Part shown: positions 267 to 63,700 of the stretch, piece by piece
Numbering within the stretch: position 1 is the stretch's first letter
Layout: each line of letters starts with the position of its first letter
NCBI GenBank assembly: GCA_963921825.1
Contig: OY997593.1
Coordinates: 63,720,039 to 63,784,038, forward strand
Length of the DNA stretch: 64,000 nt
From: Erodium maritimum
Lineage: Eukaryota; Streptophyta; Magnoliopsida; Geraniales; Geraniaceae
Direction of reading: 5' to 3'
Notes under the pieces: model-generated
Seen by the model: the letters and a program-made list of their open reading frames with translations, nothing else
Database searches by the model: none
Told to the model about the DNA's origin: nothing
Made by a program: the position numbers and the translations under genes

Positions 267-900
267 CTTCAAAAATGTAGTAAAGTATTTATATATATTT
301 TTCTTCTGACATTGTTAAAAATAATAATTTTGTCAACCGAATCTACTGACCCGGACACGTGGCAGAATCGTCGAGCAATGTCAGATGCTGCTCTCCGATA
401 CGTTTCCACGTGGCGTTCGTTTATTCGTTTGGTCAACACCGAATACGCGGAATAGACTCTACATCGAGTCGACAGTTCGTATACCGTCTAAACCGACTTC
501 CCCGATTCGACGTTACAATAGATACCGATTCAACTATTCGGCGGGAAAAACCAATTTTCTACCTGTTTAGACGATCGATTCTACGACGACGAGACGCCAT
601 TATGGCCGGTCTAAGGGATGGCTAATTCCAAAAGCAATCCTCTACAACGGATAACAAAATAGAAATCTGCTTCCCCCATATATAATTCAATCTCAACCGT
701 TCAGACAAATCAACCGATAATAAATCAGCCAATCACAACCGATCACGAGAATTTTCCCCTAGCCCAAATCGGCTTCCTATTATTTGCCTCCAACCAATTG
801 ACGTTCGGTACAGTAGTTCACACTGGATTTTACTCGGCAATTGCGGCGGCGGCTCATGTTAGCAAGCAATCCGCCTAATTTTGCTGAGCACAGTTTTAAT
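267..900. other. Flank of the Harbinger element and intergenic DNA
   Basis: The part up to about 650 is probably the 5' non-coding end of the minus-strand Harbinger element. I could not define its terminal inverted repeat or TAA/TTA target duplication with confidence. From about 650 to 900 the DNA looks like plain promoter-proximal intergenic sequence. The short ORFs here show no family features. Confidence 0.35.
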
Positions 901-35343: not shown

Positions 35344-36638
35344 TTAGTTCCCTAGCCCAAGACCAGCAAAATCATAGACAGTGTGGCCAAGATTATTCTC
35401 AAGGCTCTGTCTGAAGTTGAGATAGTCCGAGCAAAGAAACGGCTTGTAAATCCTGGAATTCCCTTCCCCCACGACCTCCTCCGGTGCCACTACCACCTTG
35501 TCCTTCTCAAAGCACCAATGGAACGCAACAGACTGGCGGTTCACAGAAGTCCTCAAAACAACTCGGTGGTGGGATGACCTTAGCCGACCATTGCTCCAAG
35601 CCTGCAACAAATCTCCAACGTTAACAACCAGAGAACCCTCACATGGTGGTATGTCCGTCCATACACCATCCTTGGACCTCACCTGAAGCCCACCGACCTC
35701 GTCTTGATACAATATTGTTATACAACTCAAATCAGTGTGCATCCCCAGTCCCTCAACCTCCTCATCTTCATCTTCAGAACCTCGTCTTGAATACTTCACC
35801 GTCCTCAGATACCCATCACATTTATCGAATTCGGATTCATACACCTTCCCATCTGATCCCAAACTCATCAATACTGCGTCTAAGATTCTCTTAGCCAACT
35901 CCATCATTTTGCTTCCACATTCTTGCATTATTTCCCTACACAAACATACATGTTGAAGTTGAACCCGCATCGAATATACACTTACTTATAAAAGTTAGGG
36001 TCATAAGATATAAGTACAGGCACAACATCAACATATGAAAAACAACCAGTTTTTTGTGCTGGAATTCGGATAGGGCGCAAGTAAGAAGGGCGGCAACTTG
36101 AGCTTCTTTTGTCACTTTCTTGATTGTGTGTTTTTGCTATCTGTTTTGTTCTGTTGTATTGGTTTGAGGAAAAAGGTATTTTTTGAGAATCGTTTTCTTG
36201 TTGTATTTCTACTTTCTTGTAAAACGCTTGCTTAATAAACTTTCGCTTATTAAAAAACACATGAAAAACAACTTGCATGTATAGTTGAAAAGTTAAGATA
36301 TCGTACTCGAATTCAGAATTCTGGTGGCCAAACAATTCAGCAGCAGAAGTCTTTGCGGATGCAAGAAAATCTGGTCCTGAAACTCGAAGGCTTTCGACGT
36401 AAGGAGATACTTTGAAAGGAGGTATGTAGATAGGGCCGAGCTTGAGCTTGGAATGTAGAGGAAGGCTAAAGGCGTGTTCCGACAGTGAGCACACTTGGGT
36501 GAACAAAGCCGTGGAGATGCCATGGTTGGTGACACGAAAGAATCCCCATTCTTGGCAGGCCCGAGAAAGGGAGTCTAAATCAATTGGAGTGGACAGATCC
36601 AATACAGGAAGTTGCACGGAAACTCTCGCTTCAGACAT
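35344..36638 (-). CDS. 2-oxoglutarate/Fe(II) dioxygenase, gibberellin 20-oxidase-like (copy B)
   Basis: Two exons, 36638-36307 and 35935-35344; 924 nt, 307 residues. It is nearly the same as copy A, with DIOX_N (WGFFRVTNHGIS), HTD (GLGMHTDLSC), the distal His (SSHHRV) and R-x-S (NRQSVAF), and an intact C-terminal tail (HTVYDFAGLGLGN). The start was placed at MSEARVSV as in the other copies; an in-frame ATG at 36713 would add 25 residues. Its 371-bp intron is longer than in copy A because of a ~214-bp retroposon insertion. Likely role is as for copy A: oxidation of a small hydrophobic substrate. Copies A and B arose by tandem duplication. Confidence 0.92.
36047..36260 (+). mobile_element. 5'-truncated LINE-type retroposon in the copy B intron
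   Basis: About 214 bp present in gene B but absent at the same place in gene A. It is flanked by 12-bp direct repeats ATGAAAAACAAC (36035-36046 and 36261-36272). It ends AATAAACTTTCGCTTATTAAAAA, a poly(A)-signal and A-tail pattern of a retroposon 3' end. The empty site in copy A confirms the insertion. Confidence 0.75.
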
Positions 36639-36884
36639 TAGATATGCAACCCTTTTCACTTGGACTATGGTTCTGGGAATATATGGAGGAGAAGGGGAGC
36701 TGATTAAATTCATTTAACAGTCCAATTAGAACATGACACAGCAACGGCATCATACACGGGGACCCCACCTCAACTTGAAAACAATATATATCTTTCATAG
36801 AGAAACTTTGACCGGCCAAACAAAATAGGCCACCAGTCTTCGAATATGCTTCGGATATTTTAAAATATAACATTATTTATTTTC

Positions 36885-37170
36885 TTGATTGATTTTATTG
36901 ATCACTGAGATACGTATTCATACAAAAAAAGCATAGGTCCAAAATAAGAAATATAAGATATGACTAATTATTATGATATCTACTATTGAGGAAATTGATC
37001 AATTTGGAATTCAGAATCTTGTGATTGAAATCACGAGATTACCGTCAATGCTCCCTTCAAGTTGGAGCATGGAGATTCGTAATGTCCAATTTGTGAAGAA
37101 GCTCATAAAAACGATCATGCTCCAAAGATTTGATGAAGATATCTTACAGAAACTAGACATTATATAGTTG
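36885..37170 (-). mobile_element. Ty1/copia fossil, C-terminal pol remnant
   Basis: On the minus strand near 37140-37060 a short stretch matches the end of copia RNase H (LEHDRFYELLHKLDITNLHAPT). A purine-rich site (GAAGGGAGC) follows, and then what may be the start of the 3' LTR. It is only a small, broken, old remnant between dioxygenase genes B and C. Confidence 0.5.
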
Positions 37171-37360
37171 ATACATTTTGCTTCTCAGTGAATAATAGAA
37201 AAGCAGAGATCATAAGCCTAGAATGAAGCCATGTTATGAAACAAATCTAATCATGCAGACTTTGCTGAAAAGGAACACTTGATACCTTACAGAAACTAGA
37301 CATTATAGTTGATACATTTTGCAAAGGGCATGACAAGCAACAATTGAACTGCAATACAGA

Positions 37361-38419
37361 TCATTCATTCCCAGGTTTAAGACCAGCAAAATCATTCCCA
37401 GTGTGCCTAATTTTCTCAAACTTACCTTCTTCATTGCTCTCTCTGAACTTGAGATAGTCCAAACAAACAAATGGCTTGTAAGCCCTTAAGTTCCCTTTCC
37501 CCACTATTTCTTCTGGTGCCAGTATCACCTTCTCGTTCTCAAAGCACCAAAAGAATGCCAGAGACAAGCGGTTCACAGATCTCCTCAAAACAACTCGGTG
37601 TTCAGATGACCTTAACCGACCATTGCTCCAAGCCTGCAACAAATCACCAATGTTAACAACCAGAGAGTCCTTACATGGTGGTATGTCCATCCATTCATCA
37701 TCTTTAGACCTCACTTGAAGTCCACCTGCCTGGTCCTGATACACTATTGTTATACAACTCATGTCAGTGTGCATTCCCAGTCCCTCAACCTCTTTTCCTT
37801 CCACATCCTCAGGTGGTGAATAGTTAACCATCCTCAGATACCGATTACATTTACTGAACTCAGATTCATAAAGCTTCCTCTCTGGGTCATCTCCCAAACT
37901 CATCAATACAATGTCTATGATTCTCTTTGACAACTCCATCATTTTGCTTCCATATTCTTGCATTATCTCCCTACAGTAACATGGAAAACGAAACAGTACA
38001 AGCGTTAAAGTCTTTGCGCTAAATGGTAATCTTGAAAATGAAACAAAAGAAAAGTACACTTACCCGAATTCAGAATTTTTCTCCCCAAATAATTCAGCAG
38101 CAGAAGTCTTTGCTGAGTCAAGAAAATCTGGTCCTGAAACTCGCAGGCTTTCGAAGTAAGGAGATGCTATAAAGCGAGGTGTGTATGTTTTAAGAGATGA
38201 CAAAGGGCCAAGCTTGAGCTTGGAGCCTGGAGGAAGACTAAAGACGAGCTCTGAAAGTGAACACACTTTACTGAACAAACTCCTAGAGATCCCATGGTTG
38301 GTGACATAAAAGAATCCCCATTCTTGGCAGGCTTGAGAAAGGGAATATAAAAATGAAGACTGAACTGGATTCGATAAATTCAATACAGGAAGTTGCACTG
38401 AAATTCTTGCTTCAGACAT
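37361..38419 (-). CDS. 2-oxoglutarate/Fe(II) dioxygenase, gibberellin 20-oxidase-like (copy C)
   Basis: Two exons, 38419-38064 and 37970-37361 (intron 93 bp); 966 nt, 321 residues. It has the same intron position and phase as copies A and B but is clearly more divergent, so the duplication is older. DIOX_N has WGFFYVTNHGIS. The iron triad is HTD (GLGMHTDMSC) plus His in SSEHRV, and R-x-S is NRLSLAFF. The tail RHTGNDFAGLKPGNE confirms the ancestral C-terminus. No breaks are seen. A start five codons upstream (38434) is possible but not conserved. Confidence 0.92.
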
Positions 38420-39355
38420 TATATAAGAAATCAAATGAGCCTTTTCAGTTGGAATACTGGGTTTGCTAGATATAGGTAAGTGTAGAGGGGTTGTTTAAAG
38501 TAAATTGAACTAGATTAACTATATAATTACAGCATGCCAGACACTACTTCAATCAAAAACAATAAACAACATTCAGCTATTTCATCATTGCATGCCCATT
38601 AAGAAGGCAATATTATGCATTTTGTGAAAAGACAGATTAAAATGCCACTATAATGAAGATGCTTGGACAGCCATAAAGAGCAAGAAAGAAAAAGCTGTGG
38701 ATAAATAAATTAACCCCTTTCAATGATACCTTTGCTTTTAATTTACTCAAACCTCACTAATACATGAGACCACATTACTTGAATCAGAATTTTACATGTA
38801 CTGTTTCCCGGAACTAAACAATAATGATAACAATGACTACAGCAATAGCAACTACTGTAATGGTTTCACTCATTGAATTGGTGAAACCCTGGGGATAATG
38901 ACAGACTCGCTCAAAAGCACCATGGCACAATTAACAAGGAAATAAAGATTGCAAGGGGTAAGGGAAATTTAACATCGCCAGCAGGCACATACTCACAAAA
39001 AGATAACATATATAAACCAAAATAAAGATTTTAGAGGTGCAATTTATAGCAGTTGACGGCTTGAAAAATCAAAACTGGTAGAAATTAGAATAATTACTTA
39101 TCATAAAGTATTCATGAGAGGTTTGATAGTTTCTTTTCAAAAAATTATTACCTTGTTAGGACCAGGTAATATAACTATCAGCAGAGACCTAAAAGATCTT
39201 ATAAATCACATTATCAAATCCCTTTTCAAGCTACACTTCCTTTCCCTCTGGGTCAACATCTCACCCATTTTGATGCAGCAGACTGGGCAAGACAGTCATT
39301 GCAACATGCACAGCTTAGTAGTTCTTTATTTAACCCATACGCGGCTACAATGGCA
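38420..39355. other. Intergenic DNA between dioxygenase C and GMP synthase
   Basis: AT-rich. The right part probably contains the GMP synthase 3' untranslated region. No gene or element is recognised. Confidence 0.45.
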
Positions 39356-42315
39356 TCACTCCCATTCAATTGTTGATGGAGGCTTAGATGTAATGTCTTG
39401 AACCACTCGGTTCACACCCCTAACACTATTGCAAATCTTTCGAGATACATCATCAAGAAACTTGTGTTCAAAATTGTACCTGGAATTTGAAATTACAATG
39501 AAGGAAGAAAAGAACAAATAGTGAGAAGAAACACATTTAAGCTGATTACACAGTAATGAAAAACAAAACTCAGAAGTAAGGGAAATTGCACCAAATAGAA
39601 AACAGAACATTGACTGCTTCCTTGGAAAGGAGTACTTTTGTGTTAGGTTTCTCAGTCAGTGCATACTACAACATCTAATTAGATGTTTGTTTTGCTTGGA
39701 TAAAATCTGAACCGAAGTGATGAACCATATTGTCATACCAACTAAGACATTTCCTTAAATGATTTGTCTCTACATCTTTCTTAGTATTTTCCTTCATCTC
39801 ACACATGCTTTTAGGCTTTGCTCATGTGACCGCTCATTAAGGTCGCATACTTACATGCATATGCATACTTTGACATATAATTTTTGTGGTAGATTAAACG
39901 ATGCGTCGTATAATGGGATGTAATGTTGAAGTACTCTGGCAGGTTAATTGACTATACAAAATATCTGACAATTATAGCTACATAAAGAACATAATGAGAT
40001 GTTGCAAATAACGACTACGAAGTCATTATATTTTCAACATCCACTATTAATGCTATTATGAATAATGACTAAGGTACATTTTGAAAATATAATGCTATTA
40101 TGCTAAATAAAGATATCTTACTGAAGGTGTAAACGGCAACAAGAAATAGCCTAAAGTGCTTACTAAAAGTCTTTAGTTTGTATGCTGATGCCAGTGATTT
40201 TCCAATTAGTAAGGCCAGTGATCCCAAAGATATATCCATCCCCAAGGAATGGCATTTGCAGACTTTGAAATATTATAGCACAGAAAAAGAATAAGTAAAG
40301 GCATACCAATCTGCTGTCATTCCATCTTGACTAGTGACAGCTCTCAAAGCAACAACATGAGAATGTGTTCTTTGATCACCTTGAACTCCAACAGATCTTA
40401 CTGGCAAAAAGACTGCAAAAGCTTGCCAAATGGAATCATAGAGACCAGCATCCCTGATAGATTGGATAAAAATCTCATCAACCTGACGGAAAATTCAAAT
40501 GAAAAAAATATAGTAAGGATTAGTCAATACATTTCAACAAATAAATAGGTTGAACTGCCAAACACAGTCATATACCTGACGGAGGACTTCCAAGGCATTG
40601 CCTTGAGTTACATCACCCAAAACTCGAACAGCAAGACCAGGTCCCGGAAAAGGGTGACGCTTTAGAAATCCTTCCGGAACATTTAAGATCTTCCCTATTG
40701 CACGAACCTTTATAAGGGGAAAGAAAATAAGTAAAAGAATATCAACACATAATAAATAAATAAATAAATAAGTGGACATGAGCAAATAGGAAGGTTGAGT
40801 TTAAAACCTCATCTTTGAATAAAAGTCTCAGGGGTTCAATGAGCTTTAATTTCATTTTCTCGGGAAGTCCCCCAACATTATGATGGCTCTTGATTGTGTG
40901 GGAATGAGTACTTCCGGTTCCAGGCGGTGGGCAAGATTCAATGACATCCGGGTACAGAGTTCCTTGGACCAAGAAAGTAGGTCTAGTCCCTAATTTATGC
41001 TCCAATTCTTGAGCAAAAGCATCAAATATACAGATGAATTCCTTTCCAATTATTTTCCTTTTCACCTCCGGATCTATTACACCTTTCAACTTACTGAGAA
41101 ATTGTTCGGTTGCATCAACACAAGTCACGGGTAAATGAAGATCCTTCTCAAAGGTTTCCATCACTCGTTCCCTCTCCTTGAACCTACATGAAATGAAACA
41201 ATCATGCTAAATAACTTAACACAAACAAACAAGGAGTTTATTCAGCAGCAAATGACCTCACATATATGCCTCACAATCTTACCTCAGTAAGCCATTGTCA
41301 ACAAAAACACAGTGAAGCCTATCTCCAATTGCCTTGTGAACAAGAGTGGCAGCAACTGTAGAATCCACACCCCCTGATAATGCACATATTACATGCTCTT
41401 CCGGCCCCACTTTGCGTTTGACCTCTTCAATTTGTTCATCTGCCACATCTTCCATCTTCCAGCCTGCAGTGACTCCGCAAACATCAAACAGAAAATACCT
41501 CAACGTATCCATCCCTTCAGGTGAATGAGTCACCTGCACAAAATTTCATCTGTCAGGCTGCAGAAGATAGTGCAACAGATATCAATACAAATGTAAGCAA
41601 TTACCTAAACAATAGTCATTACAAAGACCTAAATTAGCAAAATATAAGTTACTGCAGACAACCCAATTAGTCCAAAATGAAAGTTACAGCAATCACAAAC
41701 TTCAACCTCAGCTTCTAACCAATGCAACAGGGCAAAAAAAAAATCAAAACTTTCATGAATGAACTTGGTTACCTCAGGATGATACTGAAGCCCATAAAAC
41801 CTCCTACTACTGCTCCCTACGGCGGCCACCAGACCCTGCTGGCTCCGCGCCACCACCTCAAACCCATCAGGTAATTTTGCCACCTCGTCGCCATGGCTCA
41901 TCCACACAACCTGCTTATCACCGGCCTTCTTATTCCCAAACAAACCACAAACCTTCCCAACCTCAATCTCCATCCTCCCGTACTCTTGCTTCTCTCCAAC
42001 CTTGACTTCGCCCCCTAATTTCTGCACTATCAGTTGCAGACCGTAGCAAATGCCGAGCACGAAGACATTGTTGGACTCAGCCCACTCAACGAACCCTTCG
42101 GGAAAGCTTGGCGAGAAAGAAGAGTGGACCGAGTGGGGGCCGCCGGAGAGGATGACGACGCGCGGGTTGTGGGCGGTGATCGATTCGAGCGGCGAGGTGC
42201 CGGACATGCATTCGGATAAGATTGAGAGGCTCCGGATTCGACGAGTGATGAGGTGAGTGTACTGAGAACCGTAGTCAAGGATCAAGACCTTGTTCGATTT
42301 CGCGTCCATGGCCAT
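39356..42315 (-). CDS. GMPS: GMP synthase (glutamine-hydrolysing)
   Basis: Six exons: 42315-41773, 41533-41283, 41183-40808, 40707-40576, 40482-40307 and 39479-39356; 1602 nt, 533 residues, a normal length. The enzyme makes GMP from XMP, ATP and glutamine, the last step of guanine-nucleotide synthesis. The N-terminal glutamine amidotransferase class I domain has the nucleophile Cys90 in GICYGLQ and the His/Glu pair in GLQYHPE. The synthetase half has the PP-loop [11 protein letters not shown], then the GMP_synt_C part ([13 protein letters not shown], and the end [10 protein letters not shown]). No transit peptide is obvious, so it is probably cytosolic. Start MAMDAKS at 42315 was chosen by conservation; the frame is open upstream to an ATG at 42411. 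Confidence 0.96.
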
Positions 42316-43155
42316 GGTTTCTCTGGAAATGGGTATGTGGTCTATGTTTGGCTCACGAGAAAGATGCGATGCGGGGTTTAAGCAGAGGAAATTAGGGTTT
42401 TCGGAGGGCATGGCGGGAATTGGGCCTCATAAAGATCTTATCTTTATTTTATTCTCCTCCCTATTTCTGTCCGTACAACTGTCTATTTCCGTGATTAACG
42501 GAAATTTGCTATAAACTTGTTTTTTGTTAATGTTTTTTAAGGTCAAGTTTACGTCTTGGATATGACTCGGCTACAATATCATACTTGTAACTTGGATCTG
42601 ATCATCAGATTAAATGGTAATGCTGAAGAGGATATGCACATGCTACATAACCATGTGAGAGTCCGTTCATTTCAAGCTCATACAAGTACTTGAAACAACA
42701 CAGTCCACAGACTCAGCCATTACAAGATCATAGTATCTGATACCAGTTGGTGTAAGCTATACATTAACATTTTTGTTTCTCTATTGCTGCATGGCCACTC
42801 AGTCTTTGACAATTGGTGGAGACTCTTCTACTCCATCTTGTGCTCATACTTCTACATATGATTTTGCATTTTCAAACCCTTTTCAGTTTGGCATGAGTCT
42901 CTTCTCAGACCAGAATAGCAACCTTCATCCGAGGCTCTAGCTCCTTAACCACTTCCAAGACTGCATTAGTTCAGAAAAGGTCACAAATCTGCTGGTTTCA
43001 TAGCTCACTGGCTCCAAGCTTCCACAGCCTAACCTTCTTGTGAAAACCAGAGCCTGGGCAAGTTTTTTCTCCTGTCCAATTGGGCTAAAAGAAAGAACAT
43101 GGATGTCTGATGCTTTGTGAGCCTCTCAGCCAGAATCACTGCAATGTGTAATGGT
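42316..43155. other. GMP synthase promoter and 3' flank of the TRM-like gene
   Basis: About 840 bp. The left part is the GMP synthase leader and promoter; the right part probably holds the 3' untranslated region of the next minus-strand gene. No other coding sequence is seen. Confidence 0.45.
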
Positions 43156-46149
43156 TCAAACTTGCAGCTGGGACATAGTTTCCATTATTAGTTCTTCTAG
43201 AACACCTTCTGCCACATCAATGACAGTATCTTCAGCATCAATGCGAATATCCATCCACGAAATAGATTTAGCCAAGTCCGTCTCAGCTAGGTGCTCCAAT
43301 GTCCGTGGCATTGGCTGTGGGAGGAGGTAGCAGTCAAAACATTTCACAACCTCATGGACCACATGTTCTTCCACTGAAAAAAGCCGGATCTTCGGTTTCA
43401 TGGATGATACCCAAGGAGAGCATCTGAAATAATACTGATATACATGTACGAGGTTTTCATTAATACAATCAAAGAGGAGTCCGTGATCTGAGCAGGACAC
43501 CCCAAATTCATCGTATATGGATGGTTCGAGTAGTTGGTCTGACAAATTGCACTTCGACGAGAGTTCATCCCAATCCAAGCTCGCAGCTTGCACTACAGAC
43601 CTCACATACTCACTTAAGGATCCTTGCTCATTCATGGAAGTACTTAAAGTTCTTTGGCAATGGCTCAAAGGAGTAGAGCAGTGTTCTTCAAAAGTTATTT
43701 GTTCTGGTTGCACTGGCAGCTCATCAGCTATGGAGATTTAAATTGCATGTTAGTTTCAGATATATAAAGAACAATTGAGAAACAAGTTTATATGTTCCTC
43801 ATATTAGTAATGTGATGCCCTACCTGAATGGGATGTAATGTCTGCAGGGCTAGCGATATCTTCAATGCAGAATTGCTCAAGAACAGATACTGGACTTGGC
43901 TGCTCTGCTCCATCCTTAATATTTACATCTTCCATCTTCTCCATGCTTGATGAAGAAACCTCTAATGAAGATGTGGATGATTCACTCTCTGGTGGAGGAG
44001 AATCCTGAAAATGTTAAAGTTGGTGTAAGGACAGTGTCACACGGCATCACCTCAATTAAACAGGTGGTAGAGCAGGCTTACCAGTCTAGACAACCCCAAA
44101 GATTCATTTTCCATGCATGAGTTGGATGTAATGATGTTTTCATTAGCATAGGTGATGCCTCTGTCATTTACTTCAGAATGCAGTTCCAGAAGATTAATTT
44201 CTTCTGGGCGTTTAGAATTATTAGTTGCTACAATCCTCGGAGAACCTGTAGAAGTTTGATTATCAGCTACAATGATAACAAGAGTGAGTATAACAAATAT
44301 CATCAGGTAATAAACATTTACCTGTCGAACAAATGTTATCTGTATAGGAACATATGCTTTTGTGTGCTTTGGTCTTAGACAAAGGATTCTCTGAGCTATT
44401 TGGCTTCAATTCAGAACTTTGCATTTGATCAATGGGTTTCTTGCAATCAACCAACGATGGAACCTCCAGTTTTTCATCCGGGGAACTTAAGTTATTATCT
44501 TTCTTTTCATTCTGAAGCCTCTTGATTTCTCTTACAGAGTTTCTAAGATCACTGTCACTGACTGAAGCAGTTTCATATCTAATGCTTGATTCGAAACTCT
44601 TGGTCTTGCCTATCCTGTCTTTCCACTTCATAACACTCTCAGAACCAATCTCATACGGTGAACTTGTTCCAACCATCTCCATACCTATCCCTTTGCCACA
44701 CTCATCCATACTTTGGCAATCACTGGATGTTTTATATAACCTATTCCTGCTCACCCCAACAGCATGTCTCAACTTCTTTCTAATGCCCCCCAAAGTGAAA
44801 GATGTAGGTCTAGAGCTTTTCTCCTCAGTTTCTTCATAATGAGGTTTCAGAGAGGACCAGTGACTATCTTCATAGCTTTGTGTTATACGTGCGTTTGCTG
44901 GGCCGGGCTTCAAAACTACTATCTCATTTGATGATTGGGGATCTTCAACTCCTTTGGGAGGATAGCTCTCCTGAAACTTGATCTTTTTCAAGATACCAGC
45001 CCGCATGTTTTGCTTCCAAAACTTTTTAGCACATATAGGTTCTCCAGACTGCCTTGCATCAATGGCCTGATGTTCAGGCAACATGGCATCACATGTAACT
45101 TGTTTTGCCTGGGCATCCCGCAACTCTTCTATGTGTTTCACCAACAAAGAATTTGGGTCTTGTAACAGTTTCATAAACAATTCCTTGTTTGAGTTTAGAA
45201 TCTGCAATGCATCTAAGAACTGTTTAGACTGGGAATTTGGCCTGTCTCCACAGAGATATTTCCCATTGATAAGCTTCTGATTCACATATGCCTCGGACAA
45301 ATCATTCATTTGAATCACCTGCTTCAAGTCCAAACAATCCATATCTTTCTTGTCAAGACCCTTATCTCTACCTTGCTTATGGTGATTATGTAATGAGTCT
45401 GTCATTGCTGCAGAATCAAGTTTATGTAATAACTCATCCACTGATATTTGACGTGAAGGTTGCTTATGACCCAGAACTGAAGCATCCTTGCAGCCATTAA
45501 CAGATACACAACCAGGTTTTCTCTCTGCTTTATGCTTCTTGGACTTGTCTTTGTCTGTGACGCTCTTAACATTTTCCTTTGCATATTCAAGTAACAAAGT
45601 TTTGTTGTTCAGTCCATCCTGAAATGGTGAAGAGCTAACAAGTGAGCTTACTATTTAAACATATACTTCACATTGTATCCAGAAATCAGGATCTTCGGAC
45701 TTACATTACCAAACTGGCACTTCTCATCAACAACGGGAAGAACATTTTGCCTGTTCCTTGCATGTCTATGTCTATTGCCTGCAGAGGAAAATCAGAATTC
45801 CCATACTCAGTCAAACACAATTAAGCCTACAAATATGGGAATGGGTCCATTACCATCCATACAAAAGAAAGTGGTAAAAGTTCTAAATTAAGATATTCAC
45901 ACAGAACATGGCCCAGAGATCCTTACCAGTGTTATGTCTGTCCAAACCTCTTCTATCTGAAATCAGCTTCTTACTAGAAGGATCTTGGCGAAAGTTGAAG
46001 ATACTAATCAAACCCCAAGCACAGCCTGACTTATACTTTTCACAGAGCATAGGGCTCTTGGGAGATTTAGCTGCCATTATGTAAGGGCTCTTAGGTGATA
46101 TTCTTGTCATTATGTAAGGGCTTTTAGGCGATGGTGATCCTTTAGACAT
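43156..46149 (-). CDS. DUF3741/DUF4378 (TRM-like) protein
   Basis: Six exons: 46149-45927, 45778-45705, 45618-44322, 44245-44082, 44004-43824 and 43727-43156; 2511 nt, 836 residues. The N-terminus has repeats of SPKSPYIM. A DUF3741-like motif (PSRQISVDELLHKLD) and a helical stretch (QFLDALQILNSNKELFMKLLQDPNS) are typical of the LONGIFOLIA/TRM family. A long polar, Ser-rich middle follows. The C-terminal DUF4378 runs from SEYVRSVVQAASLDWDEL to SISWMDIRIDAEDTVIDVAEGVLEELIMETM. Members recruit TON1/TTP complexes to cortical microtubules or act in cell elongation; that role is inferred from the family only. A 5' leader intron probably ends near 46190. Confidence 0.88.
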
Positions 46150-49190: not shown

Positions 49191-50562
49191 CGAGGAGAAA
49201 TCTGGTGAGAACCATGTTTTAACGTAGGAACCGCGAGAACCAATGTAAGCCATCCATTTTAGGAATGGATGGATGAGATTCAATTGAGTAGTTGACTTGT
49301 TGACTGCAAAAAACAGCATTTTTTAGTAAGTGGTAAGCGTTTTTTAGTAAAACTATCATATTACTTTTTTTAACCAATTCACTAATTTAATTTTTCCCGC
49401 TTCGATTGAACTCCGATTGGCTTCAAACTTGCGCCATTAGTTTTGTTTTTTTAAGGGCTTTCAATCAAGATCAGTCGTGAATATATTTTGAATCACGAAA
49501 AAAAATTATTTCGGGGTTGATTTTTTTAAAAAAAATCTGGGTAATTTTTATCAACACTTTGCTATGGATTTATCAACACTTTTACACAGGTTTTATCAAC
49601 ACTTTACACTGGTTTTATCACCTCATTTTCCAAAAATGATCATGATTTTATCACCTCATCGCGTGCTTTTTATGAACACTAGTTTTATCAACACTACACA
49701 CTAGGTTTATCATTCAAATTACGTGTGTTTTATCACCCCCATCACATGTTTTTTTGAAGCACAAAAAAATATATTTTAGGGCTGGTTTTTAAAGAAATTA
49801 TATATGGGGAATTTTTATCAACACTTTGCTCTGGGTTTATCAACACTTTACCCTGGTTTTATCAACATTTTACACTGGTTTTATCACCGCATTCTCCAAA
49901 ACTGATCATGATTTTTATCATCTCATCACATGTTTTTTTATGAACACCAGTTTTATCAACACTAAACACTAGATTTATCATTGAATTACGTGTTTTTATC
50001 ACCTCATCACAAGTTTTTTTATCAACGTTAAACTCTAGTGTATCACACTTATTATCAAAATTGAAAATGGTTTTTATCACCTCATTATTTGTTTCTTATC
50101 ACCTCATTACATGTTTTTTATCAACATTTAGCACTAGTTTGGTTTGGTACTCCGGTATAAAACATTTATTAGTGAAAATTTATCAACGCTCAACATTATT
50201 TTTATCACCTTGATATAAATTTTTATTTCTGTGCTTCAAAATATATTCATGACTGATCTTGATTTAAAGCCCTTGAAAAAAGAAAAATATTGGCGCAAGT
50301 TTGAAGTTAATCGGAGTTCAAACGAATCGGGAAATATTAAATTAGTGAATTGGTGAAGAAGAAAATTGACACTTGTCCACATGGCACCATGCTATTACAA
50401 TTATGCCCTTGCTTGTGTGAGAATGGATGAAAGTGGCGTGTATGTGGTTTGAATTGGGGTGATGATGTGGCATTTTGATGAGTGTTAGATCATATGTGAG
50501 AGTGGCTAGGATTGGTTCTCACAGTTCCTATGTTAAGAGTGGTTCTCAATAGATTTCTCCTC
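49191..50562. mobile_element. Long-TIR Mutator-like element with internal TTTATCAACAC repeats
   Basis: A 1372-bp element flanked by 9-bp duplications ATCAGGCAG (49182-49190; 50563-50571). The inverted ends begin GAGGAGAAATCT, then share GAGAACCA blocks and a second strong block (49380-49500 against 50235-50370). The centre (about 49540-50235) is an array of diverged units of TTTATCAACACTTT and TTTTATCACCTCAT. It has no ORF. Confidence 0.82.
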
Positions 50563-53700: not shown

Positions 53701-53927
53701 CCACCTGTCGGCTGACCCGACTTCGAAACGAATCCCTGCTATATAAATGGGCTACGATGAGTCACAGGGCTTAACCCCCAAAGAAGCCCATTACTGCTTT
53801 GTTTCCAGCCCATCAATGACCACGACGTGGTTTACATAATTGTCACTGGATGTACTCAGCGGCTGTGAGGTTATCTGGTGAGTAGTGTATGTAGAGTGAC
53901 GAAGTGTTTGTAAAGGTACCGTTCTAA

Positions 53928-56175
53928 GAGCAAGCACAACAGAACGGCCCCGCTCCCGCGCCGTGGCGTTCGCTGGCCGGGCGCGCGGGCCGTTCCGCTG
54001 TGGAGGCGCTCCCCATTCTCGCGCTCCCGCTCCCCTCTCGTTGGTCGGGCGCGCTGGACGCGCCGGCGCGACTTCTGCTACGCTGGCAACGTGTGGCGCT
54101 GCCACGTGCCCCGACCGTTGGCACTAACGGCTAGTTTTTTTTTTTAAATTCAAAAATCAGCAAAAAAAACCCATATAAATACCCCTCTCCTCTCATTTTT
54201 TTCACACCACTTTCTACTTCAACTATCCAACTTCACTCTCTCCTTCCCAAATTCTCCTCTCTCGTTTCAATTATTCTCGTGAAAAATGTCGGGCGACGCT
54301 GGGTCTCGTGCACAGTCAGCTGCTGACGAAGTAGGATTCACCGAGGACGAACTGACACGAGGTTTCGGAGACATTCTAACGGGCAATCGCTCCAACTCCC
54401 CAAACTCGAACCCGGGGTCGAGTTCAGGTAAGTGCAAACTTATTATTTATGTAACGTAATTTTTTTACTTAATTTATTGTATTAATGCATTGTATTTATT
54501 TTTTAATTATTTTATTATATTAATACATTGTGTTACAATTTGCGCTTAATTTATTGTATTAAATTTTTTTATTAGGGCAATACCGTCCCCAACATTTCCA
54601 AATGGCGCCAGGGTTCCAAGTGCCATCACAATGGGGCATGCCCCCACAAGGTTTCCAGACGCCACTGTTCCAAGTGCCATCACAATGGGGCATGCCACCC
54701 CAATTATACAACTACGAGGGTCATCCACTACCCGACGTACAAACCCCCCAACCATCCATCCTCTGTCGAACCTTCCCAACGACGAGCCCGAGCCCCTGCC
54801 CGAGCCCGAGCCCAACCCGAAGAACCAGATCCGGAGGGTCGGACATTCAGCAAGGAGGAGGACCACCACCTCATAACTTGCTGGTTGAGCACTACAAAAG
54901 ACGCCGTCAAGGGCAACTCTCAAACCGACAACACATTCTGGTGCGAAGTGCAGAGGAAATACAACTCCAAGGGAGGTTACCCACATCGCCGCTAGGAAGC
55001 TATCAAGAAACGTTGGCTCAGAGGTTCCAGCCAGGCAAGGAGGATGCTCGGCTATTTGAAGAGGTCCAAGGCCGAGAATCCGAGCGGCGCAAACCCGGAA
55101 GAGCACTTGAGACGTGCGAAGAAAATATGGGAGGATGATGGGAAAGTGGTGAAAGACCATCCAATAAAGTTCGACCTGGATCATTGGGTCATGAGGCTCG
55201 AGGGAAATACGAAGTTCAGTGCCTAGGAGGGCACAATGGGAACTGTCCGCAGTTAGGTACACCAACAACGACAACGGTTGGATGAGGCTGGGGCTTACAA
55301 CTCAACCCCACCCACAAGCACATGGGAGAAGGGCACATATCTCAGTGGTGAGTCCCAACCACCAGAATGGGGAGGAAGCGAGAACTACGAGGGGACTCAG
55401 GTCCCTCTCAGCGACACACCCCCATCCCCTGAGGCCGCCCCAAGTCCCCCTCGCCGACCGCAAGGGAAGAAGGCAGCGAAGGCCGCAAAGAAGGGGACCG
55501 TCCTCACGACCCAAATGCTTGCCTTCGCCGAACTGGAACGTGCACGAATGGAGGCTGAACGTGCACGGTTGGAGGCTCAACGTTCACGTGGCGAACAACA
55601 TGCAGAAAAGTATCGCATGATACAGACATTAACCCAACAGTGGGAAGCAAACCTCGCCACCGACAAGTCCCTGGTGGGGACGGATACATCTTCATACGAC
55701 GAAGAGGCTATGGCAGACTATAAGTTTTGCAAGTCCCAACTGCGACAACTCATATCTACCCTTCAAGCCCAAATTGATGATCTTCGAAGACAACCCCCAC
55801 CACCGGATGTCGACCCAACAGAGGATGATTCTTAAACTTGTATTTTGTTTTGGGTTGTATTAAAAGGGGTTGAATAAAATTAGAAGTTCATTTATATTCG
55901 TGTTGAATTTATTAATTATTGATTGTCATTAATTATTTATTTCCATTTTTAAAAAAATTATGACTAAATTAAAAGGTTTCTGATAACGAATTAAATAAAA
56001 CAGGAAAATATCAAATAATAATCCAGTCAGCACTGTTCTGCACTCCCAGGACCTCAAGGTCCTTTCTGTTGCAAAACACCCACTTTTCTGCACTCCCACT
56101 CCCTCACTTTTGTCCAGTCAGCACAAGTTCTGCACTCTCACTCCCTGACCAAGGTCCTTTCTGTTGTTCATGCTC
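53928..56175 (+). mobile_element. PIF/Harbinger element 1, carrying only the MYB/SANT ORF1
   Basis: A 2248-bp element with inverted ends GAGCAAGCACAACAGAACGG (left) and GAGCATGAACAACAGAAAGG (right, read inward). It is flanked by TAA at 53925-53927 and 56176-56178. The left ~200 bp are very GC-rich, followed by a TATA box (CCATATAAATACC, about 54170). The right ~170 bp hold several TTCTGCACTCCCA repeats. The only gene is the SANT-type ORF1; no transposase is present. Confidence 0.85.
54286..55835 (+). pseudogene. Harbinger ORF1 (MYB/SANT-like DNA-binding protein), damaged
   Basis: Two exons, 54286-54427 and 54576-55835. Start MSGDAGSRAQSAADEVGF; a Gln/Pro-rich part with a duplicated FQVPSQWGMPPQ; a SANT/trihelix domain (FSKEEDHHLITCWLSTTKDAVKG, NTFWCEVQRKYNS, about 54832-55130); and a C-terminal charged coiled coil (LERARMEAERARLEAQRSR) ending PTEDDS. 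This is the partner that helps Harbinger transposase reach DNA and the nucleus. It is broken by a frame change before the SANT part and by in-frame stops at 54993, 55224 and 55254. Confidence 0.8.
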
Positions 56176-56178
56176 TAA

Positions 56179-58315
56179 GAGCATGTACAACGGGTCGCAC
56201 CCGCGCCCCACTCCGCGCGCGCCCGGACCGCGGCACGCAGGCCGACCCGCTGTGGAGGCCCAAAAATGCGCGCCCGTGCCCCAATTTCGCGCCCCCGCCC
56301 CCCGATACGCGTGCCCCGTCTCCTTCCCGCTGGCCGGTCCCGCTCCCTGCGCGCCGTCGCTGGCGTGGCAGCCTGTGGCTGCGCCACGTGGCCAGACCAT
56401 TGGCAACGGTCATGTTGCTAACGGCTTTTTTTTTAATTCAAAAATCAACTAAAAAACCCTATAAATACCCATCTTCACTCTCATTTTTTCCACACCACTC
56501 TATACTTTCACTCTTTCATAATCAATTCCTACTTGCTATTTTTGAAAATGTCCGACGACGAGGTTATGTCCGACGCTGAGGAGATGACGTACGAGGAGCT
56601 GGCTCCCCGGATGCCGACGCATGCGGAGATGGCAGCTCAACTGCCGACATATGAGGAGATGGCAGCCCAAATGCGGCAAGTTGCGCGACGATTCCGGCGG
56701 ATGATGGAGAGGCAGATGCAGAGAGTAATGCCAAGGGTCCAGAGGGCCATGCGTGGGGAACCAATGCGCCGAGAGATTAACAAAAATCGTGCGGAAGCCC
56801 ACATGCAGTTGATGGCGAACTATTTTGTCGAACAACCCCTATATGGCCCTGAAATGTTCAGGCGTCGGTTCCGTATGTGCAGACCACTTTTCCAACGGCT
56901 TATGAACGCGGTGAATGCTCACGACCCTTACTTCGTTTCATGGAGGCTCGACGCTGCCTCACGGTCGGGCTTATCAACGGAGCAGAAGTGCACCACCGCT
57001 ATACGGATGCTTGCGTATGGGTCCTCGGCCGATTCATTGGACGAAACTCTGCGCATTGGGGTAAGCACCATACTTGAATGTTTACGTAAGTTTTGCAAGG
57101 CCGTCATTCAGGTATTCGAAGCCGAGTACGAGCGTACTCCGACACCGGCGGACATGGACCACTTACTCCGAGAAGGGTACAGACGAGGGTTTCCCGGAAT
57201 GGCGGGGAGTCTTGACTGTATGCATTGGAAGTGGAAGAACTGCCCAACCGAAGAGCAGGGAGCCCATGGACGGGGAGATCACCACGGGGACAAGACGATT
57301 CTGCTTGAAGCTGTAGCGTCCCGTGATTTATGGATTTGGCATGCATTTTTCGGGATGGCTGGATCGAACAACGACATCAACGTCCTCAACCACAACCACC
57401 TATTCCTAGACGCTTACTACGGCCATGATCTAGCTGTGGAGTACGAGATCAACGGGCACCGGTACAACCGACCTTATTACTTGGTGGACAACATTTACCC
57501 ATCATACGCACGGTTCGTGAAGACTATTCGGCATCCCTTCGAGCCCAAAGAGAAGTTGTTTGCTAAATGTCAAGAAGGTGCTCGAAAAGATGTTGAAAGG
57601 GCTTTTGGAGTACTTCAAGCAAGGTGGCACATCATTTCCCGTCACGCTCGGTCTTGGAGCGCAGACTTTTTGGCTGATATCATGCACACTTGCATAATTC
57701 TACACAACATGATTGTAGAGGATGAGCGCGACCGGTACGAGTATGGGGAGGAGGGGTTGTTGTGGGCGCAACCTCAAGAAATGCCGAATTTGACACCACC
57801 GGAACGATGACACCACAGAGGGCCATTGGAATACCAGGGACTTGTGGATGCTCAACAAAGTGTCATAGATTCTGAGATCCACCATCAACTACAACAAGAT
57901 CTTATGGAGCACTTATGGGATCGATTTGGAGCTGGTTTCCATGACGACGAGTAGTCGTTTGTGCTCTTGGAGCTGGGTTTTTTGGTGTTGTATTAAAACA
58001 GGGTTGAATAAAATTAGAAGTTCATTTATATTCGTGTTGAATTTATTTATTCAGTATTGATTGTCAATGCTTATTTTTGTTCCAAAATTGTTTAAATTAT
58101 GACTAAATTAAACGGTTTCTGATAACGAATGAAATAAAACAGGAAAATATCAAATAATAATCCAGTCAGCACTGTTCTGCACTCCCAGGGCCTCAGGGGT
58201 CCTTTCTGTTGTAGAACACCCCCTTTTCTGCACTCCCACTCCCTGACTTTTGTCCAGTCAGCACAAGGGCCTCAGGGCCAGAGCCTCACGCAGGGCCGAC
58301 CCGTTGTACATGCTC
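56179..58315 (+). mobile_element. PIF/Harbinger element 2, carrying only the transposase
   Basis: A 2137-bp element with ends GAGCATGTACAACGGGTCG in both directions, with TAA on each side (56176-56178; 58316-58318). It has the same GC-rich left part, TATA box (CCTATAAATACCC, about 56457), right part with GTTGAATAAAATTAGAAG and TTCTGCACTCCCA repeats as element 1. The single gene is the transposase. It touches elements 1 and 3 with only TAA between. Confidence 0.88.
56548..57954 (+). pseudogene. PIF/Harbinger DDE transposase, one in-frame stop
   Basis: Starts MSDDEVMSDAEEM; a repeated MPTHAEMAAQLPTYEEMAAQ segment and an Arg-rich part follow. The DDE_Tnp_4 domain has catalytic Asp in GSLDCMHWKW, Asp in LVDNIYP and Glu in RKDVERAFGVLQARW. 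The reading is open to a TGA at 57808-57810 where element 3 has TGG (Trp). The same frame continues to the family end GAGFHDDE at 57954 (468 residues in all). The loss is only the last 48 residues, outside the DDE core. Confidence 0.9.
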
Positions 58316-58318
58316 TAA

Positions 58319-60464
58319 GAGCATGAACAACAGAAAGGACCTTGGTGAGGGAGTGGGAGTGCAGAACTTGTGCTGACTGGACAAAAGTGAGGTCCTGGGA
58401 GTGCAGAAAAGTGGGTGTTTTGCAACAGAAATGCCCTCTGAGGTCTTGGGAGTGCAGAACAGTGCTGACTGGATTATTAATTGATATTTTGCTGTTTTAT
58501 TTAATTCTTTATCAGAAACCGTTTAAATTATTTATAATTTAAACAATTTTGGAAAAAAATAATTAATGATGATAAATAATTCATAAATAAATTTAACACG
58601 AATATAATTGAACTTCTAATTTTATTCAACCCTTTTTAATACAACCCACAAAAAACCAGCTCCAAGAGCACAAACGACTACTCGTCATCATGGAAACCAG
58701 CTCCATATAGACCCCATAAGTGCTCCATAAGATCATATTGTAGTTGATGGCGGGTCTCAGGATTTAGGACACTTTGTTGACAATCAACTCGTTGCTGGTA
58801 TTCCAATGGCCCTCCGTGGTGCCATCGTTCCGGTGGTGTCCAATTCGTCATTTCTGGAGGTTGCGCGTACAACAACTCCTCATCCCTATACTCGTACCGG
58901 TCACGCTCATCCTCTACAATCATGTTGTGTAGAATTATGCAAGTGTGCATGATATCAGCCAAATTGTGGTTGCTCCAACTACGAGCGAGACGGGAAATGA
59001 TGTGCCACCTTGCTTGAAGTACTCCAAAAGCTCTTTCAATATCTTTCCGAACACCTTCTTGGCATTTATCAAAAAACTTCTCTTTTGGCTCGAAGGGATG
59101 CCGAATAGTCTTCACGAACCGTGCCCATATTGGGTAAATGTCGTCCACCAAGTAATAAGGTCGGTCGTACCGATGACCGTTGATCTCGTACTCCACAGCT
59201 AGCTCACGGCCGTAGTAAGCGTCTTGGAATATGTGGATGTTGTTGAGGACGTTGATGTCGTTGTTCGAGCCAGCCATCCCGAAAAATGCATGCCAAATCC
59301 AAAAATCATGGGACGCTACATCTTCAAGCATAATCGTCTTGTCCCCGTGGTGACCTCCCCGTCCATGGGTTCCCTAGTCTTCGGTTGGGCAGGTCTTCCA
59401 CTTTCAATGCATACAGTCAAGACTCCCCGCCATTCTGGGAAACCCTCGGCTGTACCCTTCTCGGAGTAAGCGCTCCATGTCAGTCGGTGTGGGTGTACGC
59501 TCATACTCGGCTCCGAAGACCTCAATGAAGGCCTTGCAAAACTTACATAAACATTCAAGTATGGTGCTTATACCAATGCGCAGAGTTTCGTCCAATGAAT
59601 CGGCCGAGGACCCATACGCAAGCATCCATATAGCGGCGGTGCACTTCTACTCCGTTGATAAGCCCGGCCGTGAGGCAGCGTCTCTCCTCTGTTTGAAGTA
59701 ACTGTCGTGAGCCTTCACCGCATCCATAATCCGTTGGAAAAGTGGTCTGCACATACAGAACCGACGCCTAAACATATCAGGGCCATATAGAGGTTGTTCG
59801 TCAAAATAGTTCCTCATCAATTGGATGTGGGCTTCCGAACGACCTCTGTTAATCTCTCGTCGCATTGGTTCCCCACGGATGGCCCTCTGGACCCTTAACA
59901 TTACTCTCTGCATGTGCCTCTCCATCATCCGCCGGAATCGTCGCTCAACTGGCCGCATTTGGGCTGCCATCTCTTCATATGTCGGCAGTTGGGCTGCCAT
60001 CTCCTCATACGTCGGCATCCGGGGAGCCAGCTCCTCGTACGTCTGAATCTCAACGTCGGACATAACCTCGTCGTCGGACATTTTCGAAAATAGCGAGTAG
60101 AAAGTGAGAATGAAAGAGTGAAAGTAGATAATGGTGTGGGAAAAATGAGGAATGGGGTTGGGTATTTATAGGGTTTCATTTATCTGATTTTTGAATTAAA
60201 AAAAATAGAGCCGTTAACCTGACCGTTGTCAAACGGTCGGATTTGACGACGACACGTGGCGGCACGGGAGAGGACCACGCCATCAGAGGGAGCGAGGAGC
60301 GCGGAGCGAGGCGCGGCCAGCAACCCGGGCGCGAGGAGCGAGGAGGGGACCCGCTGTTTCGGACGCGCGGACCGCGATTTTTCGTCTCCACAGCGGAACG
60401 GTCCGCGGTCCTCGGACCGGACGCGCGTGGATCGAGGAACGGGTACGTTCCGTTGTTCATGGTC
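58319..60464 (-). mobile_element. PIF/Harbinger element 3, transposase only, opposite orientation
   Basis: A 2146-bp element with ends GAGCATGAACAACAGAAAGG and, inward from the right, GACCATGAACAACGGAACG. TAA lies on both sides (58316-58318; 60465-60467). Its plus-strand left end is almost the same as the right end of element 1 in reverse. The GC-rich promoter side is at 60250-60450, about 320 bp from the start of the MurE gene. Confidence 0.87.
58678..60081 (-). pseudogene. PIF/Harbinger DDE transposase, three in-frame stops
   Basis: A single continuous frame of 467 codons from MSDDEVMSDVEIQTYEEL to GAGFHDDE, close to element 2 in sequence. Three stops lie at 59647-59649 (TAG for CAG), 59404-59406 (TGA for TGG) and 59374-59376 (TAG for CAG), with no frameshift. 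The DDE residues are otherwise present (GSLDCMH, VDDIYP, RKDIERAFGVLQARW). Confidence 0.88.
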
Positions 60465-60467
60465 TAA

Positions 60468-60784: not shown

Positions 60785-63700
60785 ATGGAGCTCACTTTCT
60801 TCTCCCTCCCGCCATTTTTATCTCCTAAGCCTCGCTTCTTCTCTCTCAAGCCTCAGCATTACCTTCTTCCCTCGAAGCCCTTCTCTCCTTACATTTCTGA
60901 CCCAATCCGCTCTCTCCGGCCACCGGCAGCAATTGGCCCGGACGGAAAGTTTTATCCGAACTCGTCAGACAACGACCCTCCGGAGGCCTCGGAGGATTCC
61001 GAGCACGGGGTGTCCAGATTCCAGCAAGTAGAGCGTCAGGCCGCTCGTGCACGGAAGCGGCAGGAGGAGGATTTCGAGAAACACAAGTCCACGTATCTCA
61101 CCGCCCTAGCTGATGTCGAGGACGCCCCCGACAATCCTGACGATATGGATGGTTCAGGGGACGATTTATACGGGGAAATCGACAAGGCCATAGCTATGAA
61201 GAGGAAGGAGTTCGTCAAGCAGGGGCTTCTGAAGCCGAATCCTAAGAAAAAAGACGCGGGCACTGAGAAAGAAGATAAGTTGCTGCCGGAGGAGGAGTCT
61301 GATCTGGAGGAAATCAAGAGGCTCGAGGAGCTAAAAGCCTTGTCCGAGGATTCGGAGGATGACGAGTCCAAGAGTTCAGACGACGAGGTAAAGAATCACG
61401 AGCCTTCTCCAAGCTCTGCATTTGATGTTGATTTTGATATTTATGGGACAACTAAGATTAGAGTTGTGGAGCCTAAGTTTAAAATCACTTTGGCTGAGCT
61501 GTTAGATGAGAGTAAGGTAGTGCCTGTGTCTGTTTATGGTAATTTAGAGGTGGAGATCACTGGAATTCAACATGACTCTAGGCTTGTTACTGCTGGAGAC
61601 TTGTTTGTGTGCCGAATTGGGAAGAACACCGATGGCCACTTGTATTTGACTGAGGCTGATAAGAGAGGGGCTGTTGCAGTGGTGGCTTGTAGAGAGATCG
61701 ATATAGAAGAGACTTTGGGGTGCAAGGCATTGGTTGTTGTGGAAGACACTGATGCTGTTCTTGGAGCATTGGCTGCATCTTTTTATAGGCACCCATCAAG
61801 AAATATGGCTGTGATTGGGATAACCGGGACATATGGGAAGACAACCACTGCTTATTTGGTAAGAGGCATGTATGAAGCTATGGGTCAGAGAACTGGAATG
61901 TTGAGCTCCGTTGCTCACTATCTACATGGGGGTAACAAAATTGAGTCACCTGACTCAGACTCGACCCCTGATGCTGTTTCAGTCCAGAACTTGATGGCCA
62001 AGATGCTCACTAATGGGACTGAAGCACTTGTCTTGGAGGCTTCTTCTCACACACTAGCTCTCGGGCGATGTGATGAAGTTGATTTTGATATTGCCATTTT
62101 CACAAACTTAAGAAAGGACCATCCTGATGTTCGTGGGACAGAGGAGGAATATAGAGATGCCATGGCAAAGCTATTTTCAAGGATGGTGGACCCTGAGCGC
62201 CATAGGAAGATTGTTAACATTGATGACCCACTAGCACCTTTCTTTGTTGAACAAGGAAACCCTGATGTGCCGGTTGTGACCTTTGCTATGGAGGACAAAA
62301 ATGCTGATGTTCATCCATTGAAGTTTGAACTATCTCTCTTTGAGACACTGGTTTTGGTTAATACACCTAATGGTATATTGGAGATCTCATCTGGCTTGCT
62401 CTTGAAGCATAATATATACAACATCCTTGCTGCTGTAGCAGTTGGGATTGCAGTAGGGGCACCATTGGAGGACATTGTTAGAGGGATAGAAGAGGTTGAT
62501 TCAGTTCCAGGTAGGTCTGAGCTCATTGATGAGGAGCAAGCATATGGAGTGATAGTTGACCGTTGCCAAACTCCTGAAGCTTTATCTAAATTACTCGACT
62601 CAGTAAAAGAGCTGGGACCTAAGAGGATAATTACTGGTATGGTTCTTGCATTTCTTTATTAATATGTTTTCCAAATAAATAAATGACTCCTTTTTTCAAT
62701 TAAATTTCTTGGTCATTTGTCATTGCATGAGGCATTTTATCATTTGCATAGCTTTAGTGTGAGAAGTAGTGCTAAAATCACTTAAGGCCCAAAGGTGCTC
62801 AGTCTTATTTTACTTCTTAAAGCTTTCTCACCTGTTTCTTTTGTTTCTCATTGATTGTATATGGATATTAAGTTCAGGTTTAGACATTGAATATAATACT
62901 CATTCAAGTTGTTGTAGCAATAGAGATTCATCTAGAATGGAAGCAACTTTCCTTGCTGACCCCAACTTTTTCATACTTTTATTGTGAAGTTGTTGGCTGC
63001 CCCGGGGAGTGTGATAGAGGAAAAAGACCCTTGATGACGAAAATCGCAACCGAGAAAAGTGATGTGACAATGCTTACTTGTGATGATCCAAGGAAAGAAG
63101 ATCCATGTATGTATATATAGCCAATACCTGTTTGAAGGATTTTATCTTTACTAACACTGATAAAATCTAAATATTCTTGGGAAAGCATTAATAGTGAGAA
63201 AGAAAAAATCTACATAACATAGATAGGTTCATTTTGCAATGTCATGTACTAAGAAGGTGGCTGGAGCCTAATGGTTATGCTAAATCTTTTATCTTTCATC
63301 CAGTGGACATCTTGGATGATATGCTGGCAGGTGTGGGAATGACGATGCAGGATTACTTGAAACAAGGAGAGAATGATTACTACCCGCCTCTACCAAATGG
63401 CCATAGGCTTTTTCTTCATGATGTTAGGCGGTTAGCTGTTCGTTGTGCCGTTGCCATGGGTGAGGAAGGTGATGTGGTTGTAAGTTCCTCAAACCTGCTT
63501 CTTTACTATTATCTTATCCTGCAAATTTGTAAACAATCATTTGAGAGTTGGATGAAAGGTTTCTCATTTGTGCTAACTCATTATATTGTAGACTATCAAC
63601 TATTAACTGTTCTAGCTTCTATTTCACATTAAAAACAAAGTCATTTCAAGAAACAACATTATTTGCTATTTCTCCACTAAGTTCCATACTATGTAGAAAT

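Follow-up and report, generated by a model that had tools for sequence, protein, structure and literature searches.

A probable bipartite Pong-like transposon system in Erodium maritimum, with ORF1 and transposase on separate elements

Introduction

Pong, Ping and mPing of rice are PIF/Harbinger transposons characterized by a DDE transposase, a Myb-like ORF1 (first open reading frame, ORF), terminal inverted repeats (TIRs) and TAA/TTA flanks (PMC11254759, PMC10288884). In Pong, ORF1 binds to the TIRs, and Pong/mPing elements move only if both proteins are present (PMC11254759, PMC9921582); a requirement for two element-encoded proteins is also reported in PMC2836001. A survey states that most candidate autonomous PIF/Harbinger elements carry two ORFs, and treats only families with both intact as potentially active (PMC4482050). 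We analyzed a 64,000-nucleotide stretch of the Erodium maritimum genome (the window, G000:C6:63720039-63784038, in a 763-Mb plant assembly of 40 contigs), in which three abutting elements have a DDE transposase or a putatively Myb-like ORF1, TIRs and TAA flanks, but differ from Ping and Pong in gene arrangement. Ping and Pong are single units of about 5 kb with both genes (5,341 bp in Ping16A, PMC10288884), whereas in Erodium each gene lies in an element of about 2.1-2.3 kb. mPing is moved in trans by two proteins (PMC11254759, PMC10288884); for the Erodium elements, supply in trans is what we infer. The copies in the window are dead and probably belong to a bipartite system of the Pong-like PIF/Harbinger type, with ORF1 and the DDE transposase on separate elements.

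One-gene elements have precedents. Transposase without ORF1 between PIF-type ends is known from MtPH-E and other Medicago elements (PMC2213677) and from the PePIF1 remnants of an orchid (PMC6327408). These are either low in copy number or remnants, and their genomes contain two-gene elements as well; the available parts of both sources describe no matching ORF1-only family. The converse derivative, keeping only ORF1 of a two-ORF element, is represented by HAL1 (half-L1), which derives from the L1 retrotransposon; a complementary ORF2-only family is not mentioned in the available part of the source (PMC5753468). Transposase is also the sole gene in the Spy group of PHIS transposons (PMC4482050). 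Unlike Spy, the Erodium transposase elements have an ORF1-only partner with similar ends and TWA (TAA or TTA) duplications. Spy elements are not known to make target site duplications (TSDs). We found no report of complementary one-gene PIF/Harbinger elements, or of a matching ORF1-only family, in the open-licence literature searched.

Results

Three abutting elements with one gene each

The array occupies positions 53925-60467 of the window, flanking triplets included, and consists of one ORF1 element and two transposase elements.

53928-56175, plus strand: element 1 (E1), ORF1 only, 2248 bp; borders and TAA read directly from the sequence
56179-58315, plus strand: element 2 (E2), transposase only, 2137 bp; borders from the sequence, genome matches end to end
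58319-60464, minus strand: element 3 (E3), transposase only, of another subfamily than E2, 2146 bp; from the E2 alignment and the transposase tree
53925-53927 and 60465-60467, no strand: outer TAA triplets of the array; from the sequence
56176-56178, no strand: TAA common to E1 and E2; from sequence and alignment
58316-58318, no strand: TAA common to E2 and E3; from sequence and alignment

Adjoining elements share a single TAA, and both inner junctions read CTC TAA GAG. Elements may insert next to one another more often than expected. The TIRs have GAGCATGTACAACGG-type ends, and a script that required equal TSDs found a joint solution for TIR and TSD at the threshold or above it for 65 of 83 entries. 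Target-site preference around TAA was only weak in the flanks of 64 elements. Flank reading also revealed an element-like end directly beside the duplication at L005, L029, L034 and L067 (L numbers designate individual loci).

All three genes are broken, ORF1 of E1 over several frames, the E2 transposase by a premature stop at 57808-57810, and the E3 transposase into pieces.

54286-54427, plus strand: ORF1 exon 1 of E1 (MSGD...), followed by an intron with a GTAAGT donor; limits read by eye, similar layout in other copies
54576-55835, plus strand: ORF1 exon 2 of E1, broken, in several frames; from the ORF listing
56548-57954, plus strand: transposase gene of E2 (MSDDEVMSD...); from the ORF and the Plant_tran Pfam match, frame end as in open copies
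58678-60081, minus strand: transposase gene of E3, broken, with open pieces at 58678-59331 and 59647-60081; from ORFs and Pfam

The E2 transposase matches Plant_tran (E 8.7e-89), which we take to be the Pong-type Pfam family, and DDE_Tnp_4 (E 2.7e-10); for the E3 piece, the corresponding values are 1.3e-62 and 1.3e-8. With this transposase type, 3-bp TWA duplications and TIRs, the elements belong to PIF/Harbinger and are Pong-like. For ORF1, the copies scanned were open ones at three other loci of the genome (L034, L043 and L055), and their best Myb/SANT scores (20.0, 21.0 and 15.3 bits, respectively) all remain below the Pfam cut-off of 21.7. The L034 protein is collinear with the ORF1 protein of L082 from the same genome (24% identity, E 2e-10), which exceeds the cut-offs for Myb_DNA-binding and NAM-associated.

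Beyond their start, the ORF1 and transposase proteins are unrelated by sequence. The ORF1 protein found no match in any of 42 transposase elements (positive control, 30/30 ORF1 elements), nor the transposase protein in any of 30 ORF1 elements (positive control, 42/42 transposase elements). An earlier note on this DNA had pointed to a common MS-D protein start, which is correct, but as a short match only (MSGD in ORF1, MSDD in the transposase).

E2 and E3 are 85.9% identical across their whole length, whereas the similarity of E1 to either is confined to regions outside the genes. The last part of E1 matches E3 over 337 bases and E2 over 288 bases at 89-90% identity, starting about 10-30 bases past the stop codon and continuing to the element end. 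Parts of the 5' region match at 74-77%; this likeness includes TATAAATA and stops about 40-70 bases before the start codon. The earlier note had described just such an array, with TAA boundaries, ORF1-only or transposase-only elements, and a common GC-rich 5' part, promoter box and 3' non-coding part, and sequence and alignment confirm the description.

54174-54181, plus strand: TATAAATA box of E1; from sequence and alignment with E2, E3 and L057
56460-56467, plus strand: TATAAATA box of E2; from sequence and alignment
60163-60170, minus strand: TATAAATA box of E3; from sequence and alignment
55844-56175, plus strand: 3' non-coding region and 3' TIR of E1, common to transposase elements (89-90% to E2 and E3)
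57978-58315, plus strand: 3' non-coding region and 3' TIR of E2; from alignments
58319-58656, minus strand: 3' non-coding region and 3' TIR of E3, an E1-type tail; from alignments

Two dispersed families

ORF1-only and transposase-only elements are genuine multicopy dispersed families, inserted with TWA duplications. One 24-base probe per gene, allowing up to 1 mismatch, identified 706 transposase and 290 ORF1 places in the whole assembly (0 for a reversed-pattern control). Similarity searches scored 40 of 4936 first-look candidates for E2, with query ends set 3-4 bases off the true borders, and 40 of 3307 for E1. Among the matches listed, 38 of 48 for E2 (including E2 itself and E3) extended in one piece from query base 6 or earlier to at least base 2086, and 37 of 50 for E1 (E1 included) from base 6 or earlier to at least base 2209. 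Such full-length matches leave no space for a second gene in these 38 transposase and 37 ORF1 cases. The listed matches are located on nine large contigs, C1-C9.

Both TSDs were readable in 25 of 30 fetched E2-type transposase copies (one of them E2), and in 25/25 they agreed, as TAA or TTA; matching TWA triplets were likewise present in 10/10 fetched copies of the ORF1 element. Median end branches in the gene trees are 0.022 for ORF1 and 0.014 for the transposase, and the sampled copies are therefore broadly alike in age.

Copies without stops, which the earlier note had proposed to look for, exist in both classes. We considered a copy open if its transposase frame reached at least codon 440, or its ORF1 exon 2 at least codon 395. 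By this definition, 15/42 transposase genes and 9/30 ORF1 exons 2 are open, many of them in copies picked by similarity, and they represent several subfamilies of each class; among places not picked by similarity, the counts are 4/16 and 4/19, respectively. Three acidic residues (223, 276, 350), presumably the catalytic ones, are kept in 14 of the 15 open transposases, the exception being L002, which is also without a start codon and lacks the second D. Of the nine open ORF1 copies, about seven have, as judged by eye, an open first exon followed by a GT donor. Miniature inverted-repeat transposable elements (MITEs) and plain deletion derivatives have no coding capacity or retain remnants of the other gene; here, 15/42 and 9/30 copies have one open gene, and the protein of the other gene has no match.

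Exchange of ends between the two kinds

The ends of ORF1-only and transposase-only elements are similar and mixed in trees, and thus have been exchanged; the earlier note had raised the comparison of ends between classes, and both the 3' and the 5' trees bear on it. In the 3' tree (last 340 bases, 63 elements), the class changes 6 times, at least 3 of the changes being forced by well-supported branches, and the classes were separated in 0/200 bootstrap trees. ORF1 elements of the E1 type group with transposase elements L062-L064, L066, L067, L075, L076 and L080 (support 99/97), L041, L047 and L052 with E3 and L072 (92/93), and L057 with the E2-type transposase elements, L061 and L065 (87/88). 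L043 and L046 are found near L074, on an open fork.

The 5' tree, calculated for 49 elements with 20 near-identical E2-type copies left out, requires at least 2 class changes. E2-type transposase elements are sister to the ORF1 element L057 (100/100), and join four more ORF1 elements with 98/98 support. In the transposase gene tree, the E2-type coding sequence groups with other transposases, unlike its 5' end. We conclude that a 5' end with its promoter has moved between the kinds at least once.

Other one-gene families and neighbouring genes

One-gene Pong-like elements seem to be common in this genome, as suggested by a second transposase family and a second ORF1 family, both multicopy, with ends of another type and with one gene in the copy that was read. 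The former (L081:936-2852) is a multicopy Plant_tran family of 1.9 kb with the TIR GAGCAGCTCCAACGG and TAA duplications; 32 of 41 listed matches, L081 itself included, run from base 1 to at least base 1911, and the one copy read has a transposase frame and no visible ORF1 frame. Plant_tran gave 8911 first-look candidates in the genome. The latter (L082, about 707-3111, roughly 2.4 kb) has TCA on both sides and 31 further matches between the same borders, of 44 listed. ORF1 and no transposase frame was seen in the one copy read, which contains a second frame downstream whose Myb/SANT-like match is weak and does not reach the cut-off.

Host genes lie nearby in the window. A Mur ligase frame of 625 aa is found at 60785-62662, and minus-strand frames at 35982-45597 comprise dioxygenase pieces (DIOX_N, 2OG-FeII_Oxy), a class-I glutamine amidotransferase and a DUF3741 protein. 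A tandem array at 49538-50020 consists of 1.8 copies of a 266-base unit.

Search for two-gene copies and alternative explanations

The alternative that survives best, although we consider it unlikely, is that the two kinds arose, as non-autonomous deletion derivatives, from an element with both genes (rare, lost or present elsewhere) which supplied both proteins, the retained genes being bystanders. Common ends, promoter and 3' tail are the expected remains of reciprocal deletions, and transposase elements without ORF1 coexist with two-gene elements in orchid and Medicago (PMC6327408, PMC2213677). However, the one-gene layout was observed throughout the examined subfamilies of each class, so that the split seems older than the subfamilies, several subfamilies of each class still have open genes, and neither the 40 places sampled nor the two chimeric searches yielded a two-gene copy.

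To be independent of similarity, the sample drew on exact probe places, 20 for ORF1 (13 on contig 1 and 7 on contig 2) and 20 for the transposase (contig 1), leaving out places in the similarity listings; in the transposase span, eight more listed places were skipped without a rule. A second gene was absent from all 40 stretches, which is a bound on the frequency of two-gene copies and not proof of their absence. Parts are deleted in some of the copies sampled (L050, L056, L059, L060), and the border was not clear in others (e.g. L068, L071, L078). A chimeric ORF1 and transposase DNA query scored 40 loci (1 ORF1, 39 transposase), none with both genes. The corresponding protein query scored 68 loci, 60 with the transposase, 7 with ORF1 and one with both.

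This last locus, C6:25290769-25293747, was reported as a 1095 aa open frame on one strand, and was rejected as a two-gene element or fusion. In the 600 bases at its middle, the ORF1 element ends with its whole 3' tail, after which come 76 bases left over from another 3' end and then a new 5' end. Each of the three frames is interrupted by stops there despite the reported frame, and the locus is therefore a head-to-tail pair of neighbouring elements. It shows that the protein search is able to detect both genes together.

No pair of Plant_tran and NAM-associated matches was closer than 14.5 kb among the 150 best places each, of 8911 and 1994 first-look candidates, an observation of little weight. 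A 3'-tail probe identified 786 places, not above the 706 and 290 gene-probe places, and thus does not indicate a large extra element class. ORF1 and transposase in one unit, a feature of autonomous PIF/Harbinger elements, were not found in the copies sampled or, within their limited sensitivity, by the two chimeric searches.

Several observations nevertheless weigh against a bipartite system. A result of 0/40 still allows up to about 7% two-gene copies. Neither chimeric search lists the E1-E2 pair of the window with both genes (the protein search lists its transposase alone, ORF1 of E1 being broken), and the C6 pair escaped the DNA search as well. Two-gene copies whose ORF1 is damaged or diverged would go unnoticed in these searches, and there may be a rare two-gene parent. 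Among 73 exact 3'-tail places on contig 1, 24 are more than 600 bases away from any exact gene-probe place and may be mutated copies, truncated fragments or other element kinds (the remainder being 45 near a transposase and 4 near an ORF1 probe place).

Clear purifying selection was not detected on ORF1 or the transposase, either from shared versus singleton variants or from differences fixed between subfamilies. The ratio of nonsynonymous to synonymous variants (N/S) is 0.71 for ORF1 and 0.96 for the transposase among variants in at least 3 copies, versus 0.90 and 0.71 among singletons, and the two sets do not differ (Fisher p 0.12 and 0.20, respectively). Fixed differences between subfamilies, all based on small counts, give N/S of 0.37-1.32 in nine transposase comparisons, and of 0.40-0.67 in seven of eight ORF1 comparisons, with 6.0 in the eighth. 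In addition, ten stop variants of the transposase are each common to at least 3 copies. Similar ratios for shared and singleton variants, and shared stops, are also what the bystander genes of a two-gene parent would show. The shared stops imply that defective copies amplify as well, which would be expected of elements that are moved in trans.

Two further reservations concern a correlation and the literature. Distances between ORF1 genes correlate with those between the transposase genes matched to them by 3' end (r 0.67 for 28 ORF1 elements, r 0.46 for 16 after twelve of the largest clade were dropped, 0/5000 shuffles in both cases), in a test that ignores relatedness and reuses partners, so that the correlation is supportive only. 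Moreover, the 2015 survey regards it as unclear what role the extra ORFs play (PMC4482050).

It is highly improbable that the transposase-only element is autonomous without ORF1 and the ORF1-only element a passenger on its transposase, since ORF1 is required for Pong-type movement (PMC11254759, PMC9921582, PMC2836001), is open in several subfamilies, and shares exchanged ends with the other class, even though transposase places outnumber ORF1 places (706 vs 290) and Spy elements are reported with transposase alone (PMC4482050).

Discussion

Together, the repeated one-gene families, the failure of the sampling and targeted searches to find a two-gene copy, the open copies and the exchanged ends support a bipartite Pong-like system, as proposed in the earlier note, which had the family split into complementary halves with the same promoter and termini. 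That note had named abundant two-gene copies, together with a lack of repeated one-gene families, as the pattern that would speak against a split, and had suggested counting the three kinds of element. The counts gave the opposite pattern, with both one-gene families repeated and dispersed.

A bipartite system would work as follows. ORF1, as a Myb/SANT-like DNA-binding partner, would be made from one element and the transposase from the other, and the two proteins, acting jointly at the ends of both kinds of element, would move them in trans. Neither element would be autonomous: the same protein pair would mobilize both, and the kinds would depend on each other. The system would thus be a PIF/Harbinger variant that works with two components, without the two-gene feature of autonomous members.

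Such a system may go back to an ancestor in which ORF1 lay upstream of the transposase; reciprocal deletions would have left each product with a single gene, flanked by the original promoter and the original 3' tail. A reduced size could have favoured both products, because excision and insertion are more frequent in shorter Pong elements in yeast (PMC10288884). End swapping, presumably by recombination, would keep both kinds recognizable to one protein pair. Repeated blocks in the common 3' tail are possible binding sites, although this is a guess.

More tentatively, and with somewhat less than even chances, the elements could form a DNA transposon that is obligately bipartite and resembles a multipartite virus, in that two essential genes multiply on separate, co-adapted elements whose ends are kept alike by swapping. 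Pong-like elements in this genome may even be organized in this way generally, given the second transposase family and the second ORF1 family.

A family with its genes on separate elements, if it persists, would be missed or called dead by a rule that demands both ORFs intact. Such a family would also offer a natural system for studying the survival of a transposon whose parts can be lost independently, and for asking if the division is favoured by small size, by dose control or by escape from silencing.

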